IMG/VR virus record: IMGVR_UViG_3300017987_001800
Span: 1-25,466 of that record
DNA from: a virus
Reading direction: 5' to 3' (one strand)
DNA length: 25,466 bases
This document shows positions 4,843 through 24,000 of this stretch, piece by piece. Made by a program: the position numbers and the translations under genes. How positions within the stretch are numbered: position 1 is the stretch's first letter; each line of letters begins with the position of its first letter. The notes under the pieces were generated by a model, which saw only the letters and a list, made by a program, of their open reading frames with translations, had not been told where the DNA came from and searched no databases.

Positions 4843-6063
4843 ATGTTAGTTATCGACAAACTTGCGGAATTGAGAAATCATGTAGACATAGGCGGCATGG
4901 GCATCCTTGAAGAGCTGACGCTCATGCTCGCGCCGTATAATTATCGGGCGGCCTATGATGCCTTGATGGGTATCGACCCTGCGACGGCGACGGATGAATT
5001 TTTATCCGCCCTGCGCCTTGTGGAGCTGGCCCTGAACGACCATTACGATCCTGTGCCGGGGACGGAGAGTGTGGCCAGGACGGATATCAAGCGGTGGATG
5101 AATATCGCCCGCTCGGCCGTGCATCGCAAAGCGTGGGAATCGCTCACCGAGCATATGGGGATATTCCCCGGCCTGTTCGACCCGGCCGGGAAAACGGTTT
5201 GCGGTCGCATCAATGTCTCATGTAGCAATGTTGAGTGTGGCGAGAAGTTTTATGATGCCGAGGCCACATACTGCGAGCATTGCGGGACAATGCGGCGCAT
5301 GTGTCGCAACGGCCTGGGGGACAGCGGCGTAGAGACGCGCTGCCGGGTACATCGGTCGCGGCAGGAGTTGACGGGGCTGACCGGTCGGGCGAAGATGTAT
5401 GCAGCCGTCATGAATGACGTAGATCGCTCCGTTTTTCTCGATGGCGTCATCTCCTCCGATCTTGACCTGACGGCGGAAATCGGCCTCATTGCCCGTCGCA
5501 TCACTTCTTTGGTTGACGGTGTGAAGGTCGATCCGAAAGAGATGGCCCGCGCCGTCAATGGGCGGACAAAAGATGTGCAAAAGGCGTACAAGAAGCTGGC
5601 CGACATCGACCCCGGCGAGGATCCCGAGGCGTGGTTTGAGTCGTTTGGTGAAGTGATGGGGCGTGTCGATTCCTTGATGGGTGTTTTGGACGCCGCGCAG
5701 GATGACGACTCCCGCTGGCGAGAGGTGGTTGGCACTATCAACCAGCTCCGCCCGGTTATCAAGGAGCAGCGTGATACGATTGTCCAGGAGCGGCAGATGA
5801 TTACGGCCGATAAGATGCGTGAGTTAATCGCGTTGACGACGGCTCAATTCCGCAATGCCGTTATGGAGGCGTCAAAGGATGTGATGGGCCTGCTGATTGG
5901 TCGGATGCAAGACTTGGGTGACGCTGAGTTTTCCCGGATGCTTGAAGAGCAGGTTTTGACAAACGAGGATATAAAGGACGGGTCGTACTTGTCTCGCCGC
6001 ATCCTCTCCACCACCCAGAAGCGCATCGCCCAGGATAGGCAACTCCAGCAAAGGGTTCAGTAA
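4843..6063 (+). CDS. Zinc-motif DNA-packaging protein, candidate small terminase
   Basis: This 406-residue protein starts at the first ATG after the promoter and ends in a TAATG overlap with the large terminase, the usual place for a small terminase subunit. Residues 127-147 hold C-X4-C and C-X2-C pairs (zinc-ribbon-like). Residues 154-170 hold C-R-N-G...C-R-V-H-R, a pattern I associate with phage small-terminase-type proteins carrying a C-N-G...C-X2-H knuckle. The rest is helical, with a charged C-terminal half. In known phages the small subunit recognises DNA and regulates the large one. The assignment rests on position plus the Cys/His motif. The protein is long for a small terminase, so another packaging or nucleic-acid role is possible. 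Confidence 0.55.
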   Translation: MLVIDKLAELRNHVDIGGMGILEELTLMLAPYNYRAAYDALMGIDPATATDEFLSALRLVELALNDHYDPVPGTESVARTDIKRWMNIARSAVHRKAWESLTEHMGIFPGLFDPAGKTVCGRINVSCSNVECGEKFYDAEATYCEHCGTMRRMCRNGLGDSGVETRCRVHRSRQELTGLTGRAKMYAAVMNDVDRSVFLDGVISSDLDLTAEIGLIARRITSLVDGVKVDPKEMARAVNGRTKDVQKAYKKLADIDPGEDPEAWFESFGEVMGRVDSLMGVLDAAQDDDSRWREVVGTINQLRPVIKEQRDTIVQERQMITADKMRELIALTTAQFRNAVMEASKDVMGLLIGRMQDLGDAEFSRMLEEQVLTNEDIKDGSYLSRRILSTTQKRIAQDRQLQQRVQ

Positions 6064-7703
6064 TGCCCGAAGATATTGACGTTCTATCTATCATTTACGA
6101 CGAGCTGGCCGCGCTGGATGACGGCGAGGGGTCGCTTGCCGATGTATGGATGGATGGAATCGTAGATGGCCTCGATCCGATGCAGGATGCCCCATACGCA
6201 GAATACAAGGATGACCCTATAGGTTTCTGCGAGGATGTGCTGGGTATCAAGCACCTAACGCAAGATCAGAGAGATATGCTAATCTCCATCCGGGACAATG
6301 AATCAACTGTTGTCATGTCGGCGACCGGGGTGGGCAAGACGTTTATTATGGCGGCGGCCGTCACATGGCTTTACAAGTGCCACACGGATATCGAGGCATA
6401 CACGGCCGCTGCGCCGCCGGAAGGCAACCTTAAACGACTCCTTTGGGGAGAGTTGAATCGCTTCATTGTCAAGAACCCGAAAGTGTTCATTGACGATAGT
6501 ATAAAGACCCTGATGATCACCCGCGCTCCCAAGCAGCACATCGAGGGGGTGACGATCCCCAACTCGGGCAAGCCGGAGGACATTGAGGCTCGCTTCTCCG
6601 GGAAGCATCAGGACGTACTGGTGTTTTTTTTCGACGAGGGGGATGCGATACCGGAGGCGGTATACAGGGGCGCAGACGGGTGCATGTCCGGCGGTCGGAT
6701 TGTGCGGATGGTTATCTGCTACAACCCCCGCCATAAGTCCGGCTACCCATACAAGCTAATTTCTGAGAAGATGGCTCACGTTGTTCATATGAGCGCCTTC
6801 TCGCACCCGAACGTCATTACAGGCAAGAACCTGATTCCAGGCGCCGTCACCAGGGCCGCGACCGTGCGGCGCATCAATGAGTGGACGCGGCCATTGGGCA
6901 AGGACGAGGAGCGCGACTCTTCGTGTTACGACCTGCCGGATTTCCTTGTCGGTGTCACGGCCAAAGATCGAAAGGGTCGCGAGTACCCACCACTCAAACC
7001 TGGTGTGTACAAGGTCATCGACCCACAGTTTTCTTACAAGGTACTTGGTGATTACCCATCATCCGGCTCACAGCAACTCTTCGACGAGATTAAGATCGAG
7101 GAAGCAATCGGCCGCTGGCAGACCTACGTCACCATCCGGGGGGAAACCCCACCGAAGGGAGTCAAGGCAATCATGGGTTGCGACGTGGCCGACCTTGGCC
7201 CCGACTCTTCTGTGGCGATTAAACGATATGGTGGCTACGTCACTCAGCCGCGCCGCAAGAACGGCGTCGATCCGTTTGGGGCGGCGTTGTGGTTCTCGGA
7301 TATGTACAAGGAAGATGGCGACGTGCGTGTGGCCAACATTGACGCCATTGGTGTCGGCGCAGGCGTGGCCCCAGCGATGTTTCGCGAGGGGTGTACGAAC
7401 GTAGTTGGTGTGAAGGTGTCGGAAACGGTCCCTGGCAACCCGGACGAAGGCGTATTCTCCCAGCTTCGCGATTACGCTTACTGGAAATTCCGCATGTGGC
7501 TGCACGAGGATGCGGGGGCAATGCTCCCCCCGGACGAGCGGCTACTTAAGGCCATGCGCGTGTTGACTTACGACAGCGTAAATGGCAAAATAAAGATTAT
7601 GAAGAAGGAGAAGATGAGGGATGCGCTCAACTATTCTCCTGACGAAATGGAGGCTCTTATGCTCACGTTTACGCCTTCCAGCGTATGGATGGGGGGTGTC
7701 TGA
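6063..7703 (+). CDS. terL: Terminase large subunit
   Basis: The 546-residue product has the ATPase and nuclease features of TerL. The Walker A motif is SATGVGKT at 86-93. A hydrophobic Walker B strand ends in D191-E192 (VLVFFFDEGD). A coupling-type segment, ICYNPRHKSG, lies near 218-227. In the C-terminal RNase-H-like nuclease, probable metal-binding aspartates are D374 (GCDVADLGPD), D427 (NIDAIGVGAG) and D527 (SPDEMEALML). It pumps DNA into the prohead and cuts the concatemer. The length is normal for the family. The ATG shares an A with the preceding TAA, and the end overlaps the portal start. Confidence 0.93.
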   Translation: MPEDIDVLSIIYDELAALDDGEGSLADVWMDGIVDGLDPMQDAPYAEYKDDPIGFCEDVLGIKHLTQDQRDMLISIRDNESTVVMSATGVGKTFIMAAAVTWLYKCHTDIEAYTAAAPPEGNLKRLLWGELNRFIVKNPKVFIDDSIKTLMITRAPKQHIEGVTIPNSGKPEDIEARFSGKHQDVLVFFFDEGDAIPEAVYRGADGCMSGGRIVRMVICYNPRHKSGYPYKLISEKMAHVVHMSAFSHPNVITGKNLIPGAVTRAATVRRINEWTRPLGKDEERDSSCYDLPDFLVGVTAKDRKGREYPPLKPGVYKVIDPQFSYKVLGDYPSSGSQQLFDEIKIEEAIGRWQTYVTIRGETPPKGVKAIMGCDVADLGPDSSVAIKRYGGYVTQPRRKNGVDPFGAALWFSDMYKEDGDVRVANIDAIGVGAGVAPAMFREGCTNVVGVKVSETVPGNPDEGVFSQLRDYAYWKFRMWLHEDAGAMLPPDERLLKAMRVLTYDSVNGKIKIMKKEKMRDALNYSPDEMEALMLTFTPSSVWMGGV

Positions 7704-10690: not shown

Positions 10691-10877
10691 AAATAGCATG
10701 GGCGAAGTGCGTTGTGTGGAGTGCGGATCGCTACTTTGTCGCGCCGCCGAGGGGAGCCGCGTAGAGATGCGCTGCCGAAAATGTCGGCGGACAGATACCT
10801 ACGTCATGACCGAAAGTGGCTGGGCAAGGCTGATCAATCAGCAAAAACGGCCAATTCCGGGTATAATTCGCGCTTAG
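10680..10877 (+). CDS. Com-like zinc-ribbon protein (65 aa)
   Basis: The ATG at 10680 overlaps the previous gene. A second in-frame ATG at 10698 is possible. Residues 12-35 contain C-V-E-C-G-S-L-L and, 17 residues after the second Cys, C-R-K-C, with an additional C20. This spacing and the RCXXC..LL pattern match the Com family named for phage Mu, whose founding member binds mom mRNA and activates its translation. Com-like genes also occur in many phages lacking mom. Here the protein ends the packaging/portal transcript, just before the capsid promoter. A role in RNA or DNA binding is likely, and the target is unknown. Confidence 0.65.
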   Translation: MENENSMGEVRCVECGSLLCRAAEGSRVEMRCRKCRRTDTYVMTESGWARLINQQKRPIPGIIRA

Positions 10878-10879
10878 AC

Positions 10880-10908
10880 TTGACGTAAGCGGCAACAACC
10901 ATTATTAT
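10880..10908 (+). promoter_or_regulatory. Near-consensus sigma70 promoter of the capsid module
   Basis: TTGACG at 10880-10885, a 17-base spacer and TATTAT at 10903-10908 form a near-consensus promoter starting three bases after the Com-like stop. Transcription is predicted to begin around 10914-10916. It would drive the helix-hairpin-helix, protease/scaffold and capsid genes at high level. Confidence 0.7.
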
Positions 10909-10921
10909 TGATAGGGAATAG

Positions 10922-10954
10922 AGCGCCACGAGTGCCAGCAGCACTCGTGGCGCT
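10922..10954 (+). promoter_or_regulatory. 5' leader hairpin, perfect 14-bp stem
   Basis: AGCGCCACGAGTGC at 10922-10935 pairs perfectly with 10941-10954 across a five-base loop (CAGCA). It begins about six to eight bases after the predicted transcription start and is not followed by a U-tract (TTCTGTATT). A 5' stem-loop protecting the mRNA from decay fits better than a terminator. A U-less terminator of the upstream transcript remains possible. Confidence 0.65.
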
Positions 10955-10977
10955 TCTGTATTATATGGAGCATATCA

Positions 10978-11289
10978 ATGGCGAGAGTCAGGCGAGACAA
11001 GTTTAACGAGTTGGAAGAGCGGGTGGAGCGGTTGGAGCAGATTGTCTCCGAGTATGTCACCGAACGCCACCTGGCGATCAGCGAATCCGGTGAACCGGAA
11101 GTAGCCCCCACTCAGGTAGAAGAGCCTGAGATTTTATCATTTGACGACCTGGGTCTGGCGCCCAACGCGAAGAAAGCATTTGAATCGGCCGGGGTCCGCG
11201 ATCTGCATGAAGCACTCGCCCTATCCGACGACGAGCTTTTATCCATTAAAGGCATCGGCCCGAGTACGGTAGAGAAGCTAAGGAGTTAA
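10978..11289 (+). CDS. Helix-hairpin-helix domain protein (103 aa)
   Basis: GGAG at 10967-10970 precedes the ATG by seven bases. Residues 7-30 form a charged coiled coil (KFNELEERVERLEQIVSEYV). After an acidic, proline-containing linker, residues 56-103 form a helix-hairpin-helix unit with the LLSIKGIGPSTVEKL signature, as in DNA-binding HhH domains and the RNA polymerase alpha C-terminal domain. Such domains bind DNA backbone non-specifically. As the first gene after the capsid promoter it may bind DNA during packaging or occur in the virion. This is inference from position. Confidence 0.75.
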   Translation: MARVRRDKFNELEERVERLEQIVSEYVTERHLAISESGEPEVAPTQVEEPEILSFDDLGLAPNAKKAFESAGVRDLHEALALSDDELLSIKGIGPSTVEKLRS

Positions 11290-14508: not shown

Positions 14509-14543
14509 CCCCCCTCGGCCGGTGCGCCAACGGCCGAGGGGGG
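14509..14543 (+). terminator. Perfect 13-bp hairpin after the capsid gene, U-less
   Basis: CCCCCCTCGGCCG at 14509-14521 pairs perfectly with CGGCCGAGGGGGG at 14531-14543 across a nine-base loop. The next bases (TGTGAGG) contain no T-run, so it is not a classical intrinsic terminator. It may act as a U-less terminator or as a 3' block to exonucleases on the capsid transcript. Nothing else is seen between the capsid stop and about 14550. Confidence 0.6.
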
Positions 14544-15188: not shown

Positions 15189-16290
15189 TAGCTGCGTTTC
15201 GTTTGACGAATCGCTCCGAATACTGAATATCCAGAACATATCCGGCTCCTACGGACTCCGCGTCCCCGGCGCTCAGTGTCTCCTGTACTGGGAGTCGTAC
15301 CAGCGACAGGCATGGTTCCGGGCGCTGGCCGAGGCGCAGGATATTATTCAGCGCGAGCTGGGTCACTTCCTGTGTCCAACAGAAATTTGCGACGAGATTC
15401 ACTTCGTCGATGAAAACATCATTCTGGACCAGAAGCCCGTATTGTCCCTCGGCGAATACGTTTACTCGGACTGGACCGAAGCAGCCCTCACAGGCTCCGA
15501 TCCGGTCAAAACCGAGTTGTGTATCCTGGATACCGATCTCCCGGCCGACTTCAATGTCGCCGATATCGAATTCAAGTACCCCGCCACCATCGACGAGGTG
15601 TACGATTACGATCAGTGTCTCCAGAATCCTAACGCGATTTACAAGGCTGACTGTGACGGTAGCGGGAATCCCGGCTGGCATTTTACGTGGAAGCAGTATC
15701 AACTGATTCCGCCGGAGACAGATACGCTGGAAGTCGAGGATGCCGCCGCAGAGTTTATCCAGAGTGTACAATGGCGCACGAGAAGCATTGACACAGCGAC
15801 GGCCGTCCAGCCGATTGCGCTGGACACCGATTGTGCATCACCCAACTTAACGGCCGTGTTGATTGACGGTCTGCGCGGTGTAATCGAGGTGGATGCCGAA
15901 GGCGACTGCGCCGCTTATGTGAACATATCGCAGCGACTCAAATTCAACTACATCACAACATTCGATTGCGAAACGGGGTCGATGCCATACGCGCTCCGCA
16001 AGGCGGTTGTCTTGCTGGGCCTGCACATGGTAGGTGATACACCGGCAAAGCCGTGTGAGTGCGACAACGATTTTATCGACGGCTGGCTCAAGATGGACGA
16101 GACAGCCGCCAACGAATTTGCCCACAAGATCCGCTACGGGGCCACAAAGGCGGCCATGCAGGCTCAGCGGATTGTAGACAATTATATGAAACGGCCCAAA
16201 GTCAACGCGCCGCTACAGGGCGCTGGTGCGTTGCTGAGAAAGCATCAGTTCGACGGTAAAAAGACGAAGATGCTCAGGAGATTCCGATAA
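15181..16290 (+). CDS. Cysteine-rich head-tail connector candidate (369 aa)
   Basis: GGAG at 15170-15173 lies seven bases before ATG 15181, which overlaps the membrane gene by eight bases. The N-terminal part has a helical segment RQAWFRALAEAQDIIQREL, and the C-terminal 120 residues are helical and basic (EFAHKIRYGATKAAMQAQRI). A beta-rich region separates them. Connector proteins that bind the portal often have such helical ends, and the position after the capsid supports this. Thirteen cysteines are present, including MCNSC at the N-terminus and C292/C294. The connector call is from context only. Confidence 0.55.
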   Translation: MCNSCVSFDESLRILNIQNISGSYGLRVPGAQCLLYWESYQRQAWFRALAEAQDIIQRELGHFLCPTEICDEIHFVDENIILDQKPVLSLGEYVYSDWTEAALTGSDPVKTELCILDTDLPADFNVADIEFKYPATIDEVYDYDQCLQNPNAIYKADCDGSGNPGWHFTWKQYQLIPPETDTLEVEDAAAEFIQSVQWRTRSIDTATAVQPIALDTDCASPNLTAVLIDGLRGVIEVDAEGDCAAYVNISQRLKFNYITTFDCETGSMPYALRKAVVLLGLHMVGDTPAKPCECDNDFIDGWLKMDETAANEFAHKIRYGATKAAMQAQRIVDNYMKRPKVNAPLQGAGALLRKHQFDGKKTKMLRRFR

Positions 16291-17591
16291 TGGCTGGTGT
16301 AGTCAGGGTAGAACTTGTGCGGAGAACGGCTCTAGGTGAACTCGTTCCGGTTGGCAACGAGTTTGTTTTAGGTAGCGAGATTGGCGTATCCGTACTTTCC
16401 GAAGGGCAGATTGACGCTTTTGGAAGGCAGCGCGTTAGTGCGCCTGAAACCATATTTGACAGCAAGCAATTATTCGATAATTCGCCGCTGCTTTGGGACG
16501 ATCAAGAGGTGAGCGGTGGCGGAACGGGGACTACATATACCCAGAATCGCGCATCCACGTCCATATCCGTTGGCGACACGACTGCCGGAAAGCGTATCCG
16601 ACAATCGTTCCGCAGCTTCAACTACGAACCCGGCAAAAGCCAGTTGATCTTCATGACCTTTACAGGAATGGGCGGGGCGGCCGGGATCGTCAAGGAAGTC
16701 GGCCTCGGCAACGACGGTAACGGTGTGTTTTTTGTGAACGACGAGGGGACGCTGAAGATGCGCATTAGGTCGAGTGTCGGCGGCGTTGCGACGAATACGG
16801 ATGTAGAGCAGTCCGCGTGGAGCGATCCGCTTGACGGGACTGGAGACAGTGGGTTTACGATTGACCCGTCCAAGTCGAACATTCTGTTTATCGACCTAGA
16901 GTGGCTCGGTGTGGGCCGTGTGAGAACTGGGTTTGTTATCGACGGGTTGATTGTGCCCGTTCATGCTTTTAACAACGCCAATAACCTCGACTCTGTTTAT
17001 ATGTCCACACCAAACTTACCGCTGCGCTACAGCATTGAGAACGACGGAACCGGGGCGGCCGATTCGCTTGAGCATATTTGTTCGAGCGTAATATCGGAAG
17101 GCGGGACGCAGAGCGTTGGTAAAACCGCCTACCTACCCAGCGATGGAGAGGTCAACGCGAATACTGAAGCGGTGATTTACGCATTGAAGGGGGTCAGATT
17201 AAAGACTGGCGGTGTCGGGGCGACCGTGCGCGTGGAAAGCGTTTCGGTGCAAGCGACTACAAACGATCCGTTTGAGTGGCTACTTATTCTTAACCCAACC
17301 GTAGCCGGTTCTCCATCGTGGGCCGATGTATCAAATTTCGCTATACAAGAGGGATCCCCGGACACGACCGGAAGCCCGTCAGCGACAACGGTCACTGGCG
17401 GTACAATCATCAGTGGCGGCCTCGGCAGCGGGGATGGTGGCGGCGGTATTTCTGATATTCAAGCCATTTCCGACACCGTTTCGCTCGGCGCGGACATTGC
17501 CGGGAGTGTTGACGAGTTGTGGCTCTGCGTGACTCCACACAGCGCCAATCTCGACATACGGGGCGCATTAAAGATCAGGGAGTTGGCCTAA
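16290..17591 (+). CDS. Phage surface/fibre-like structural protein (433 aa)
   Basis: The ATG at 16290 shares its A with the preceding TAA. Residues about 44-140 contain a recognisable phage structural segment: FGRQRVSAPETIFDSKQLFD, then a glycine/serine/threonine stretch, then FRSFNYEPGKSQLIFMTFTG. I associate this with surface or head-fibre/decoration proteins in many phages. The remainder is beta-rich, with a Gly/Ser-rich segment at about 370-390 (SGGLGSGDGGGGIS). It contains few charged helices and no membrane span. It probably lies on the virion exterior near the neck, but attachment site and binding partner are unknown. Confidence 0.6.
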   Translation: MAGVVRVELVRRTALGELVPVGNEFVLGSEIGVSVLSEGQIDAFGRQRVSAPETIFDSKQLFDNSPLLWDDQEVSGGGTGTTYTQNRASTSISVGDTTAGKRIRQSFRSFNYEPGKSQLIFMTFTGMGGAAGIVKEVGLGNDGNGVFFVNDEGTLKMRIRSSVGGVATNTDVEQSAWSDPLDGTGDSGFTIDPSKSNILFIDLEWLGVGRVRTGFVIDGLIVPVHAFNNANNLDSVYMSTPNLPLRYSIENDGTGAADSLEHICSSVISEGGTQSVGKTAYLPSDGEVNANTEAVIYALKGVRLKTGGVGATVRVESVSVQATTNDPFEWLLILNPTVAGSPSWADVSNFAIQEGSPDTTGSPSATTVTGGTIISGGLGSGDGGGGISDIQAISDTVSLGADIAGSVDELWLCVTPHSANLDIRGALKIRELA

Positions 17592-17911
17592 TGGCTAAAA
17601 AGAAAAGTTATCTGCGATCCCTGCTTGATCGATCAGCCTACCGCAAAAGCGCGGTTGGTCTGGACAATCGGTTGGGGAATCGTGTAAAATCGTTAAAGGA
17701 TATTGACAATCTCCCCGCAATCGTTGGAAGCCCCTCGATTGACGGGATAGACATTTATCAATTGGCCGCTGAGTTACGTACACTGGCACTTATACCCGAA
17801 GGCGAGTCAAAACCTGACGTGGTAGCCGAGGAAAAGGCCGAAGAAGAGCCGAAACCGAAGCGTAAACAGCCAAAGGCTAAAGTGGCCGTAGAAGATGATG
17901 GAGGCAAATAA
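17591..17911 (+). CDS. Hypothetical basic/acidic small structural protein (106 aa)
   Basis: ATG 17591 overlaps the preceding TAA, and an earlier in-frame start at 17519 would read through the previous gene. The N-terminus is basic (MAKKKSYLRSLLDRSAYRKS). The middle is a short helical region, and the C-terminus is a low-complexity acidic then lysine/proline-rich tail (EEKAEEEPKPKRKQPKAK). Such tails suit a flexible linker or assembly protein. It lies where neck or tail-completion genes are usually found. No family is recognised. Confidence 0.7.
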   Translation: MAKKKSYLRSLLDRSAYRKSAVGLDNRLGNRVKSLKDIDNLPAIVGSPSIDGIDIYQLAAELRTLALIPEGESKPDVVAEEKAEEEPKPKRKQPKAKVAVEDDGGK

Positions 17912-19410
17912 TGGCCGAAACGTTTATGAGACAAGACCGGCTCGCCCTCTGGATCCAGAAAAATCCTGGTGAGCCGCTGGAGCTTTTGGGTGTTGATGAC
18001 AACGCCGCCGGTCTGACGGGTATCAACATTCCCGTTGTGGACAATTCTCCAGTGTATAGCAAAGATCGTAACGGCAAGCCCGTTATTATCTCGGTCACGA
18101 AGTCCGCTCCTGGCGACCTGCCCGGTTTGACCGTGACTATTTATGACAAGCCGACCCTGACCTTCCTGCTGGAACTGGTTAAGCGCGGCTGCCCCGTACA
18201 GTTGCATCGGGTGTATGTGGATTGTGGTGTTCTGGACAACCCGAACATCTACACCACCGACGACATCCATGTCAACTCGGAGATCACGTCCTACAGCCCC
18301 GGCGACGGGCCAACGCTGGTATTTTCCGGTGAGTTGGTCACGGCCGCTGGTACGATGACGTTTGAGAAGGCGATTCGCTTCCTGCGGACCGGCCTGAGCG
18401 CCCTGACGAATGCGTCTGAGGCTTTGAACGACATCGCTGGCCTGAAAGATGAGGATTGTAATGAGTGTGGCAACGGCTACGCTGGCCCGGACAAAATCAT
18501 GTACGCGGCCGCCGATGCCGCTGGCGGCGCAACCGCCAAGCTGCGCTACACGGCCGATGGTGGGTCCACCTGGGCCGACACCTCTGCCGACCCGTTCGCT
18601 GCTGACGAGAATATTGACTTCGTTCAGGTTCTCCCGATTTCTCAGGACGAATTCCGGGTCGTTGTCGCTACCGGCACGACCGATGGCGCGGCGACGGCCA
18701 AGTTTGCCTATGCCGACGTGGAATACGGTGACGAGGGCACGACTGTCTGGACGACCGTGAATATCTCCGCTGGTGCGAACGGCGACGTGATCGAAGCCCT
18801 GTTGTGGGCAGAATTCTCCCGAGGCTACGTTGCTTCCGCAGGTGATATCTTCCTGTCGGACGACGGGTTCAACTCGGACCCCGGAACAGCCATCTACACG
18901 GGCGCGACTGCTATGGCCGGATTCGCCAAGAGCTTTAACGGCCGTGACATCTGGGCCTACGGCGCATCCAACCTCATTCTGCGGGAGCGGGATAAGTCTG
19001 GTGTATTCGAGGCGAAGGTCGGGCCGTCCGGTGGTGGCGCCTTTACGGCAGTCGCCCAGGCTGACGACAATCTCCTGTACGCCGGTAACGGCCAGGCTCT
19101 CTACAAGAGCGTGAACCAAGCCACCAACGCTGGTGGTTGGGAAGCCCTGAAAGATTTTGGGGCAAGCCACTCTGTTGCGGAGATCCAGCTTGTTCAGGGT
19201 AACAGCCAGGTGTTTCGCGTGGTTGTCGATGACGCAACGCCGGGCAACGGCGAAGTATGGGAAACTCGTGATGGTGGCGCAACATTCACGAAGGTAACGG
19301 AGTTGACCAACACTGGCTACAACGCCGCTTACTTTAGTGAGATCGACGACAATCTCGGGGTCGTTGTCGGTGATGGGGGGTCCATCCATCTGTTGCAGCC
19401 CGTAGCCTAA
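17911..19410 (+). CDS. Tail tube protein with appended beta-propeller-like domain
   Basis: The ATG at 17911 overlaps the previous TAA. Residues 1-180 look like a tail tube monomer (WIQKNPGEPLELLGVDDNAA, then beta-rich segments), and the gene precedes chaperone and tape measure genes as expected. After a short CNECGNG linker (183-189), residues 198-499 contain Asp-box-like turns: TADGGSTW at 214-221, LSDDGFNSDPG near 315-325 and TRDGGATF at 452-459. These motifs mark BNR-type beta-propeller repeats. The full length (499) is more than twice that of most tube proteins. The propeller would project from the tail surface and may bind glycans or other ligands. The tube call is from position. Confidence 0.68.
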   Translation: MAETFMRQDRLALWIQKNPGEPLELLGVDDNAAGLTGINIPVVDNSPVYSKDRNGKPVIISVTKSAPGDLPGLTVTIYDKPTLTFLLELVKRGCPVQLHRVYVDCGVLDNPNIYTTDDIHVNSEITSYSPGDGPTLVFSGELVTAAGTMTFEKAIRFLRTGLSALTNASEALNDIAGLKDEDCNECGNGYAGPDKIMYAAADAAGGATAKLRYTADGGSTWADTSADPFAADENIDFVQVLPISQDEFRVVVATGTTDGAATAKFAYADVEYGDEGTTVWTTVNISAGANGDVIEALLWAEFSRGYVASAGDIFLSDDGFNSDPGTAIYTGATAMAGFAKSFNGRDIWAYGASNLILRERDKSGVFEAKVGPSGGGAFTAVAQADDNLLYAGNGQALYKSVNQATNAGGWEALKDFGASHSVAEIQLVQGNSQVFRVVVDDATPGNGEVWETRDGGATFTKVTELTNTGYNAAYFSEIDDNLGVVVGDGGSIHLLQPVA

Positions 19411-19421
19411 TCGGGGTTAAT

Positions 19422-20120
19422 ATGATAATAACTATCACCACAGAAGCCGGTGATAGTATAGAGATTCGTCGGATGGGGCTGTTTGAGATCAATGAGGTCA
19501 AGCAGCCCCATCTTCGTCCATTTACCTATACTATTACCAGTGTGACCGGCAAAGAGTTTGAAATCGAGTACGATCCTAGCCGATACGAGGATCCGCCGGG
19601 TCGCCCGGATTGCGACAAGGACTCCGCCACAAAGGGGGACAACTGTTGGCACGAATGGCGCGAGTATGACTTGTTCCGTGCGGCAATGGCGCATCAGTCC
19701 AGGCGGTTTGCCGATCTGATTGATTACAAGCGAAGCGTGGCCGACTACGTGTTGCGGAATTGCATCGTAAACCAAGACGACATCCACAAGATTGTCACAA
19801 TGGCAGATTGGGAAGCGGTGTCAAAAGCCGCGCTTGTCGGACAGGTGGGGCACGACATGATTGTCCAGGTTTTACGCGAGGACTTCGGCGCAAGCTGGGG
19901 TGGCATGGAAGTGTTTGACGCTTTGGAAAAGCATCTCGAAGGTGGTCATGGCGAATTCAAGGCCATTGCCGTATGGGAAACGGAGATGATGATCGAACAC
20001 AATATGACAGAATCAGAGTATATCACACTCGATCCTCGGGAGCGGGCGCGGAAGATTGTCGCCCACAAATTGCCGAAATGGATCGAGTCGCTCGATATGA
20101 ATCTGGCGAGTAAGAGTTAG
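19422..20120 (+). CDS. Probable tail assembly chaperone (232 aa)
   Basis: The ATG at 19422 follows GGGG at 19412-19415. The first 60 residues are beta-rich, and the remainder is helical with WHEWREYDLFRAAMAHQSRR and TESEYITLDPRERARKIVAH. That C-terminal pattern resembles phage proteins lying between tail tube and tape measure genes, where the chaperone that coats the tape measure is encoded. No programmed -1 frameshift into the next gene is possible near the end, because TAA 20111-20113 blocks that frame. The first 120 nt hold nested inverted repeats, described separately. Confidence 0.6.
   Translation: MIITITTEAGDSIEIRRMGLFEINEVKQPHLRPFTYTITSVTGKEFEIEYDPSRYEDPPGRPDCDKDSATKGDNCWHEWREYDLFRAAMAHQSRRFADLIDYKRSVADYVLRNCIVNQDDIHKIVTMADWEAVSKAALVGQVGHDMIVQVLREDFGASWGGMEVFDALEKHLEGGHGEFKAIAVWETEMMIEHNMTESEYITLDPRERARKIVAHKLPKWIESLDMNLASKS
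19431..19538 (+). promoter_or_regulatory. Nested and competing RNA stems at the start of the chaperone gene
   Basis: Three complementary sets occur. ACTATCACC (19431-19439) pairs perfectly with GGTGATAGT (19449-19457). GGTGATAGTATA (19449-19460) also pairs with TATACTATTACC (19527-19538), 12 bp with one G-U. Inside the latter, 19472-19486 pairs with 19498-19512 (15 bp with one G-U, 11-base loop). The first and outer stems share a strand and are mutually exclusive. Confidence 0.6.
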
Positions 20121-20674: not shown

Positions 20675-21054
20675 TGGGAACGGGTGACAATATCCGGGAG
20701 AAGGCTTCTGAGTTTGCTCGATCTCCTGAGTTTGCGATGTATATATCAGCGGCAGTTTCCCGGGCCGACAAGGCGTGCTGGGGCTATACAGACGGGACGC
20801 TTCCCATGCTGATGGGGCAACTGGCCGTGATGATGAATTCCCCCACCTACTCCGCCTTGCTGGCGCTTAATGCGGTGGATATCTATCAAGACTTGCGCGG
20901 GATGATTGAGAGCGCGAGAGAAAACGCTTCGGACTTGAGTCCAGAGCAAATGGCTGATAAACTAGGCATGATGCAGCTATTAACCGGGTGGCTGCAAAGT
21001 ATCGAAGTAATGGCGCAAGAAGCAGCGGAGTTTGACGATGGGAACCCAAACTAA
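20674..21054 (+). CDS. Hypothetical helical protein before the tape measure (126 aa)
   Basis: ATG 20674 overlaps the preceding TGA, with GGGGGA about six bases upstream. The product is mainly helical and methionine-rich (GTLPMLMGQLAVMMN), with an acidic C-terminus, and has one cysteine. It overlaps the tape measure start by 17 bases in another frame, so the two are translated together. The second tail-chaperone gene usually occupies this position, but no slippery sequence joining it to its neighbour was found. The function is uncertain. Confidence 0.65.
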   Translation: MGTGDNIREKASEFARSPEFAMYISAAVSRADKACWGYTDGTLPMLMGQLAVMMNSPTYSALLALNAVDIYQDLRGMIESARENASDLSPEQMADKLGMMQLLTGWLQSIEVMAQEAAEFDDGNPN

Positions 21055-24000
21055 TCGAGTAGATTTTGAAGCTCTGCTGGATATCAATAAATTCCTCAGT
21101 GGTATGAGAGCCATCGAGAAAGAGGTTTCAAAGACTGCGAAGAAGATAGACAGCGCCTTCACCCCCGCTCTCGAAAAGGCCAACAAAGAGTTGGTCACAA
21201 TGAAAAGCAACGCTGAGGGTGTCGCTACTGCTGTGAAGAACATGGCCACCTCAGCCAAAAGTGTGGCCACCAACCTAAAGCAAGCAAACCGGGCCGCCGT
21301 CACAAGTCAACGGGCCTCGACGGGTGGCCTGAGCGCCGCGCAGATGCGAGCTGGTATCAACGTATACGGTGGATACGGAGCTGGTGGATACGGGCCATCT
21401 CAGATCAACGCGGCCGGTGGGTTTTCTGGCGCACCTTACGGCCCATTCCCGAGAATGAACGCGGCTGGTGGGCCAGGCGGTGTATTTGGCCCGCTTCGCC
21501 CATTTGGCGGCATGAATACATACGGAGGTTACGGCACATCGGGGTACGGGCCGTTTCAGTCTATAAATCGGTACGGCGGGCCAGGTGGCGTTACCAGCCC
21601 GTTCCAGTTTGGGCCAGCGCCATTTTCGGGCGTTCCGCTCGGCCCGGCAACGCCCACTAATTCCGGTGTGGCGCCATCCCTCCCTATGCACGGCCCGGCT
21701 GTGTTTGGGCAAGCTCCTGGATCGGTCAAGGGCATCTTCACCGAGCTTATCCCACAGATTGGCAAGGCTGCCGGAGAGATGGCTGACATGGACAAAATCA
21801 TGGCCTCTCTGGGTACGCGGGCCACCGGATTCCTGGAGAGCATGACCACCAGCGGCAGTACGCTTGCCAGGACGCTCGGCCAGGGCGGCTTGAAAATGGG
21901 TGAGTTGGCGAGTGCTGCCGGGCTATCTGGAAAAGCCCTCCTCGCCGCCGGTGCCGCTGCCGCCGGTATCGCTGCTGCCGTTGCCGGGGCCGTCGTTGCC
22001 ATGAAGGGGATGTGGGAAATCTCCAAGATGGTCTACCAGCAGTTCATACAGATTACCGATCAGGCTGCGCAGGCGGCAATTCAGATTGACACGGCCCGCT
22101 CCGGCTTCGAGGCTATGTTTGAAGGTAGCGAGGACATGGCCGGGGTGGCGCTCGATATTGTGCGGGAAAAAAGCCGCGAGATGGGTGCCGATCTGACCCA
22201 GCTCGGTCGCGCATTTCTGCCTGAAATGTCGTCGCTCGAAGAATTTGACAAACTCGCCGAGGTTTCGGCTGCGCTGGCCGCTTACGATCCCGCCCAGGGG
22301 GCTTACGGTGTCAACCTGGCGCTGAAAGACGCGATGACGGGCGACTTCCGCTCACTTCGCCAGCGTCTTGAGTTTTCCGTGCCGGAAACAGACCGCATCC
22401 GCGCCCACATGGAAGAAAACGGCAACTCCATCATATCTATGCTCGACGCCATCGAGGTTGAGCTGGAGCGTAAAGGTCGTTCGTGGGAAGCGTTCGCTGA
22501 CACGTTCGCCGTTCAGATCGGACGTGTTCAGCAGGGTTGGCAGTTTCTCCTTGAGGAAATGGGGGAGCCAATTCTGGATACGCAGAAAGAGGGCTTCCGG
22601 GCACTTGCTGACGCGATGGAAGAAAACATGGATGTGTTTATCGTCATGGGTCAAGGCGTCGGCCGACTCCGGGCGATAATCGAAGACCTGAAACTGTCTT
22701 TCTACCAGGGTCTTGTTGAGGTCATTGTCAGCAACCAGGAACAGATATTTGCCTACCTGGAGTATGCGGAAAAGATGTTCACCATCATTGCTACAGTGGC
22801 GCGAGAGGCGGGGCAAGCTATCCAGTCCATGTTTACGCGCTCTGAGTCGAACGACGCCACAGCCATGCGTCTCGTCCTCGATCAGATTATTCAAATGGGC
22901 AGGGCCGTCGCGGTCAAGTTTATCGAGGCTTCTACTATTGTCGAGAACTTTTTCGAGACGTTTAGGGACAATGTGGATGCGCTGGCGACAATACTCGACC
23001 CAGATTCCACCGCCGAAGAGCGATGGGATGCACTCGCCAACCTGGAAGGTCCGAGCGATCTTGTCAAGGAGAGCCTGGATGAAGCGAAGGCATCTATCGA
23101 AGAACTCGACAACAGTCTCGCCCAACTTGAAGTGGATTGGGAAACGAGAATGGAAAACATTGGTAAGTCCGCCGACGATACGGCCGAACAGATAGCCAAT
23201 GCGTTCCTGGAAGTGAAGGCCGCCCAGCAGGTTTTGGCGCAGGCGCAAGCAGACTTGGCGGAGGCCCAGGCGGATTTTGATAGCGATCTGATTGAATTGA
23301 CTCGCGATACAACTAACAAGATTTTGGAGTCCTGGGTCCAGCACGGGCGCGATATCATAGACCTGGAGCGCGACACCTCGCAAAAGCGCGAGGATGCTAT
23401 GCGCGACCACATCCAGACAATCCGCGATATGCAGATAGATTACCGCAACGACCTGCAAGATGCGGCGATGGATTATGCACAGGACCAGGAAGATGCCGCT
23501 CTGAAAGCGGCCCGCAAGGAAGAGGATATACGCCGGGAGTACGCCCGCAAACTCCTTGAGGATGAAGAGGATCTCAACAAGAAGAAACTGGAAGCGGAAC
23601 GCAAGTACCGTGACAAGTTGGCGGAGCTGCGCCGCAAGTATGAATTCGATGCGGCTGAGGCGATTCGCCAAAACGACGCCGTTGCCCTGTTGCGGCTAAA
23701 GCGCAAGCTGCAATTCGATCTCAATGAAGCCCGCATCGCTCGCGACAAGGAGCAGTCCGACGAGGACCGTGTGGCGGCCGAGAAAAAAGCCCAGCGCGAA
23801 CGCGATCTTCAAGATGAGCTAGAGGACGCCCGCATCGCCAACGAGCGCCGACTGGAAGATGCAAAGATATCTTACGAGCGCGAGCTGGAGCAGTTACAAA
23901 TAAACCTCCAGCGCAAGCTCGCCGAACACCAACTCGCCCTTGAGCGCGAGTTAGAGGCAATCAAAACAGCGGAGGAGCGCAAGCGGGAAGAAATCAACCT

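Follow-up and report, generated by a model that had tools for sequence, protein, structure and literature searches.

Does the start of a putative phage tail gene carry more RNA structure than its protein would produce by chance, and if so, what might that structure do? The question is raised by the 25,466-base virus record IMGVR_UViG_3300017987_001800 (the window, that is, the whole stretch of DNA analysed), in which a 232-aa open reading frame (ORF) begins only 11 nt after a 499-aa ORF and is separated by two small ORFs from a 1222-aa tape-measure-like ORF at 21032. The two genes that meet at this boundary are:

17911-19410, + strand: 499-aa ORF, putative tail tube gene by position only, upstream of the 232-aa ORF
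19422-20120, + strand: 232-aa ORF, putative tail assembly chaperone gene by position, with no family match; holds the hairpin in codons 9-40

An earlier note on this DNA had treated 19422-20120 as a tail chaperone gene. The position between the tube and tape-measure-like genes agrees with that assignment, but neither profiles nor folds add to it: the 232-aa protein gave no PHROG match and no significant Pfam match, structure prediction from the single sequence gave a poor model (mean pLDDT 47), and Foldseek with this model returned no match at E <= 0.001. Because no profile names the protein and the poor model has no significant matches, "chaperone" and "tube" are labels from position alone. 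The putative tube protein is large for its part (499 aa), and its C-terminal region shows a weak, sub-threshold likeness to YCF48-like/BNR repeats. Long open frames also run antisense to the tube ORF (17758-19389, - strand, 543 aa) and to the tape-measure ORF (22352-23671, - strand, 439 aa), and are probably an effect of codon bias.

At the sensitivity used, neither phage records nor IMG/VR or GTDB contigs yielded a homologue of the 232-aa gene; these sets may omit records very near the window. The search comprised tblastn against the phage collection with the chaperone, tube, portal-like, capsid-like, terminase, decoration-like (16290) and 24700 ORFs as queries, scans of IMG/VR and GTDB contigs, 16 terminase-related whole records, and phmmer on the ORFs of more than 100 loci. 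Useful relatives were recovered only for the terminase and for the virion protein at 16290-17591, and none of these relatives carried the chaperone or the tube gene. For the terminase (6063-7703), the closest relatives (44-48%) lie on Deltaproteobacteria/Desulfobacterales MAG contigs and a few IMG/VR contigs, followed by Salinibacter ruber phages (37%); these may hint at the hosts of the lineage, though no tail gene is held in common. The 16290-17591 product belongs to phrog_1645, a virion structural protein whose relatives occur in many cyanophages, in HMO-2011 and in 17 IMG/VR contigs. Their carriers have no other gene detectably in common with this phage, so that the protein is apparently a freely exchanged module. 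A scan with the degenerate protein motif ERAR...A.xLP.W was discarded, as its matches were all unrelated frames.

The structure in question is made up of the following predicted elements:

19446-19541, + strand: complete hairpin with outer, middle and inner helices, about -48.6 kcal/mol as RNA (predicted)
19449-19461, + strand: 5' arm of the outer stem, the first nine bases of which double as the 3' arm of competing stem A
19526-19538, + strand: 3' arm of the outer stem
19472-19486, + strand: 5' arm of the inner 15-bp stem
19498-19512, + strand: 3' arm of the inner 15-bp stem, with the loop at 19487-19497
19431-19439, + strand: 5' arm of competing stem A, partner 19449-19457, 9 bp, about -11.3 kcal/mol alone

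A base-pairing check recovered all three of the stems that had been proposed within 19431-19538, each at its given position. Stem A pairs 19431-19439 (ACTATCACC) with 19449-19457 (GGTGATAGT) at nine of nine Watson-Crick positions across a 9-nt loop. The outer stem pairs 19449-19460 with 19527-19538 at 12 of 12 positions, one of them G-U, and reaches 13 pairs with 19461/19526; the inner stem pairs 19472-19486 with 19498-19512 at 15 of 15, again with one G-U, and its 11-nt loop allows two further pairs. The outer stem encloses the inner one as had been described, and short helices join the two, such that 19446-19541 forms a single hairpin of 39 pairs in 96 bases, with uninterrupted double-stranded runs of 16 inner and 13 outer pairs. 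Its 5' end lies 36 nt past the tube stop codon, at +25 of the 232-aa ORF.

This fold is exceptionally stable. The minimum free energy (MFE) of 19422-19541 is -50.4 kcal/mol, as compared to -25.1 +/- 3.3 kcal/mol for dinucleotide shuffles, the control by which the earlier note proposed to judge the structure; the native fold is far lower (z -7.72), and 0 of 200 shuffles were as low. With the protein held fixed, the native energy was reached in none of 5000 gene-wide synonymous permutations (z -5.9) and in none of 5000 samplings from the codon usage of the genome (z -5.5), so that the folding energy is lower than in either of these two coding-preserving controls. When codons were permuted within the first 40 only, the native energy was reached 5 times in 5000 (z -3.2), from which it follows that part of the stability signal stems from local codon composition. 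Of 1015 windows along the contig, the one with the hairpin has the lowest dinucleotide-shuffle z, and of 829 coding windows it has the lowest synonymous-sampling z (-5.8). Two other coding windows have unusually low synonymous-control z values, 7551-7670 at the 3' end of the terminase gene (-4.8) and 19279-19398 at the 3' end of the tube gene (-4.5). Among 103 gene starts upstream of large ORFs, drawn from this window and other loci, the hairpin is the most extreme (-7.8), and the positional equivalents in the other loci hold no comparable hairpin (next best z -4.3). The signal is stronger for the + strand RNA (z -7.7) than for the complement strand (z -5.1), while the same hairpin folded as single-stranded DNA gives z -6.0.

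These results bear on the possibility that the good folding is a mere coincidence of amino-acid repeats and AT-rich local codons, in one gene among the many that phages have. Of the 37 positions in the hairpin's register, 30 form Watson-Crick pairs, compared to 18.4 +/- 2.3 (maximum 27) in 20,000 synonymous recodings, a test biased upward by the fact that the register was picked after the fold was known; a simple count puts the ceiling attainable without protein change at 34. The protein sequence alone thus yields about 18 of the 37 positions, and this, together with the matches under local permutation (5/5000) and the further coding windows of the contig that reach down to z -4.8, is what a chance origin has in its favor. 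Against it stand the absence of any match in both genome-level controls (0/5000 each) and the first rank of the hairpin among 829 windows and among 103 gene starts. We therefore consider chance an unlikely explanation; the hairpin is far beyond what chance provides for this 232-aa protein.

Several classes of known element could be set aside. No terminator-like site occurs at 19446-19541 and no T run follows either stem, which excludes an intrinsic terminator or attenuator. The hairpin sequence is not shared elsewhere in the window, as a repeat element would be, and Rfam 15 covariance models gave no match at gathering threshold in the window, with only chance-level scores near the hairpin (E 0.7 or worse). 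A recoding signal, the other role that had been suggested, deserves attention given that -1 frameshifting is frequent in tail chaperones (PMC5009743). In lambda, however, the site is found close to the 3' end of gene G (PMC5009743), not at the 5' end of the gene as here, and no slippery site is seen adjoining the phage hairpin. A single open frame spans the hairpin; upstream of it no slippery heptamer is seen, and the + strand offers no alternative ORF of 60 aa or more. With neither a slippery heptamer nor a frame to enter in the sequence and ORF list, we rejected a -1 frameshift signal, and the chance that the hairpin serves programmed frameshifting or other recoding is close to negligible. 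What may be held in common with lambda G/GT is the matter of dosage for a tail assembly chaperone downstream of a tube gene, here by positional labels.

Stem A raises a separate issue, that of a switch. As the earlier note had it, the two stems that use 19449-19457 are mutually exclusive, which the geometry bears out, and the two folds are comparable in energy: the long hairpin (MFE -57.6 kcal/mol) is ahead of the stem-A state (-54.0 kcal/mol) by 3.6 kcal/mol. In prefix folding, all the prefixes examined with ends from 19460 to 19535 have stem A in their MFE structure, and it is lost by 19540 (at about 19538). The predicted cost of opening the region from -20 to +17 is 16.2-16.7 kcal/mol with stem A and 12.1 kcal/mol after the long hairpin forms, within a range of 7.8 to 24.7 kcal/mol across the genes of the phage. 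In addition, when partners are required to lie within 120 nt with at most one G-U, 19449-19457 is the only 9-mer on the + strand of the window with two alternative partners (two occur on the - strand), and no such 9-mer arose in 4000 recodings.

These properties could be read as a translational switch, in which stem A, covering codons 4-12 while the transcript is nascent or incomplete, would lower initiation until the long hairpin opens the start. The small energy difference, the loss of stem A between 19535 and 19540, the fall in opening cost and the uniqueness of the three-strand competition on the + strand all fit such a reading. It also has precedents among type I toxin mRNAs, of which hok is one with metastable nascent hairpins. 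In AapA3, such hairpins sequester the Shine-Dalgarno (SD) sequence and block early translation (PMC6733600); as here, a strand pairs locally until a later partner captures it, and the structure lies partly inside the ORF (PMC6733600). In contrast to AapA3, the first stem of the phage lies past the start codon and its mature state is predicted to be more open. Unlike for type I toxin systems, we know of no antisense RNA for the phage hairpin, and the resemblance is one of folding logic only.

Other observations weigh against the switch. Only about 80 nt of transcription, which takes very little time, lies between the two states. In both folds the SD region, immediately ahead of the start codon, remains largely paired, and neither a ligand, a sensor, a leader peptide nor a U-tract was seen. 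Moreover, the rival strands form a direct repeat, ACTATCACCA at 19431-19440 and ACTATTACCA at 19530-19539, that encodes TITT and TITS within a protein repeat, TIT..G...EI. An equally high repeat score arose in 17 of 5000 shuffles, and the structure model (pLDDT 47) likewise shows two strand pairs there. Since the rival strands encode one repeated protein motif, the two-partner property reflects one coincidence and not two: once one stem exists, the competing stem comes nearly free. The original argument that three stems would hardly arise by chance thus stands for the fold as a whole with the protein fixed, but not for the additional partner, and the suggestion of an attenuator or translational switch is energetically conceivable, yet the sequence gives no sign of its use. 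Most likely, stem A is only the nascent fold of the 19449-19457 strand and gives way when transcription reaches base 19538; a functional use of the switching is possible from the folding model, though we regard the translational switch itself as decidedly unlikely. The more elaborate proposal, that exclusive stems on nascent and finished transcripts would set the timing or the dose of the tail assembly chaperone against that of the tube protein, a role filled by frameshifting in lambda-like phages, is very doubtful.

What, then, might a stable hairpin do at this position? The three longest near-perfect inverted repeats of the window all form hairpins that start no more than 45 nt past a stop codon (10877, 14484 and 19410). 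As the three strongest hairpins follow stop codons, this suggests that strong hairpins mark the ends of gene segments in the late region of the phage. The hairpin at 14509-14543 (CCCCCCTCGGCCG...CGGCCGAGGGGGG) is very strong and intergenic, lies 25 nt past the stop (14484) of the putative major capsid gene, and has no T-run on the + strand (z -4.8). That at 10921-10955 is a perfect 14-bp inverted repeat (10922-10954) between ORFs ending at 10877 and starting at 10978; it is terminator-like by scan and adjoins a sigma-70-like promoter match at 10880-10908.

We tentatively favor a reading in which the late mRNA would carry a boundary hairpin, encoded within the opening 40 codons of the gene that follows the tube gene, that limits chaperone output or processes or shields the tube mRNA. 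The hairpin would lie inside the coding sequence because intergenic space is lacking at this boundary. It could delay ribosomes entering the gene and so lower downstream output relative to the tube gene; it could, instead or alongside, be a double-stranded processing site of the RNase III type; and it may protect the upstream tube mRNA against 3' exonucleases. Most likely, the downstream gene would yield less product, the upstream mRNA would be processed or protected, or both. Such an effect should be needed at a tube/chaperone boundary, with many copies of the tube protein and few of the chaperone; the lambda virion contains about 192 tube subunits but neither gpG nor gpGT (PMC5009743). Our preference, which we hold with limited confidence, is owed in part to the exceptional fold at fixed protein and the stronger + strand RNA. 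Counting against it are the weaker structure at equivalent positions of other loci and the share of the signal that local codon composition supplies. Long stable stems at gene boundaries of polycistronic mRNAs are familiar from the T7 RNase III sites and lambda sib. The phage hairpin shares this placement, but the T7 and sib stems lie between genes or in untranslated regions, whereas the phage hairpin is wholly coding and its cleavage hypothetical.

Ranking close behind the boundary hairpin, and nearly as likely, is its strongest rival, a coding quasi-palindrome with no RNA function. Here, template switching during replication would have rewritten one arm into the reverse complement of its partner, a change that the protein would have tolerated. 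The creation of near-perfect hairpins by template switching is documented (PMC8794818). The two main stems are nearly coaxial (i+j = 38987 and 38984, an offset of one codon), 33 of 44 pairs are in the codon register 1-3/2-2/3-1, and six of the seven in-register sites that are not Watson-Crick involve a third position, compatible with silent decay, although two thirds would be expected to do so anyway. Long inverted repeats within ORFs are also known from Nematomorpha mitochondria, where coding palindromes are perfect, up to 284 bp long and numerous (PMC6649704), unlike the one imperfect 96-nt element of this phage. On the other hand, the middle section (10/13 nt) is not palindromic in register and would need an indel and further changes after a single event, the in-register departures (four G-U versus one A-C) lean weakly toward selection at the RNA level, and the window holds no second long intragenic inverted repeat of this kind. 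The hairpin would offer a clean test of how selected RNA structures can be distinguished from palindromes left behind by template switching.
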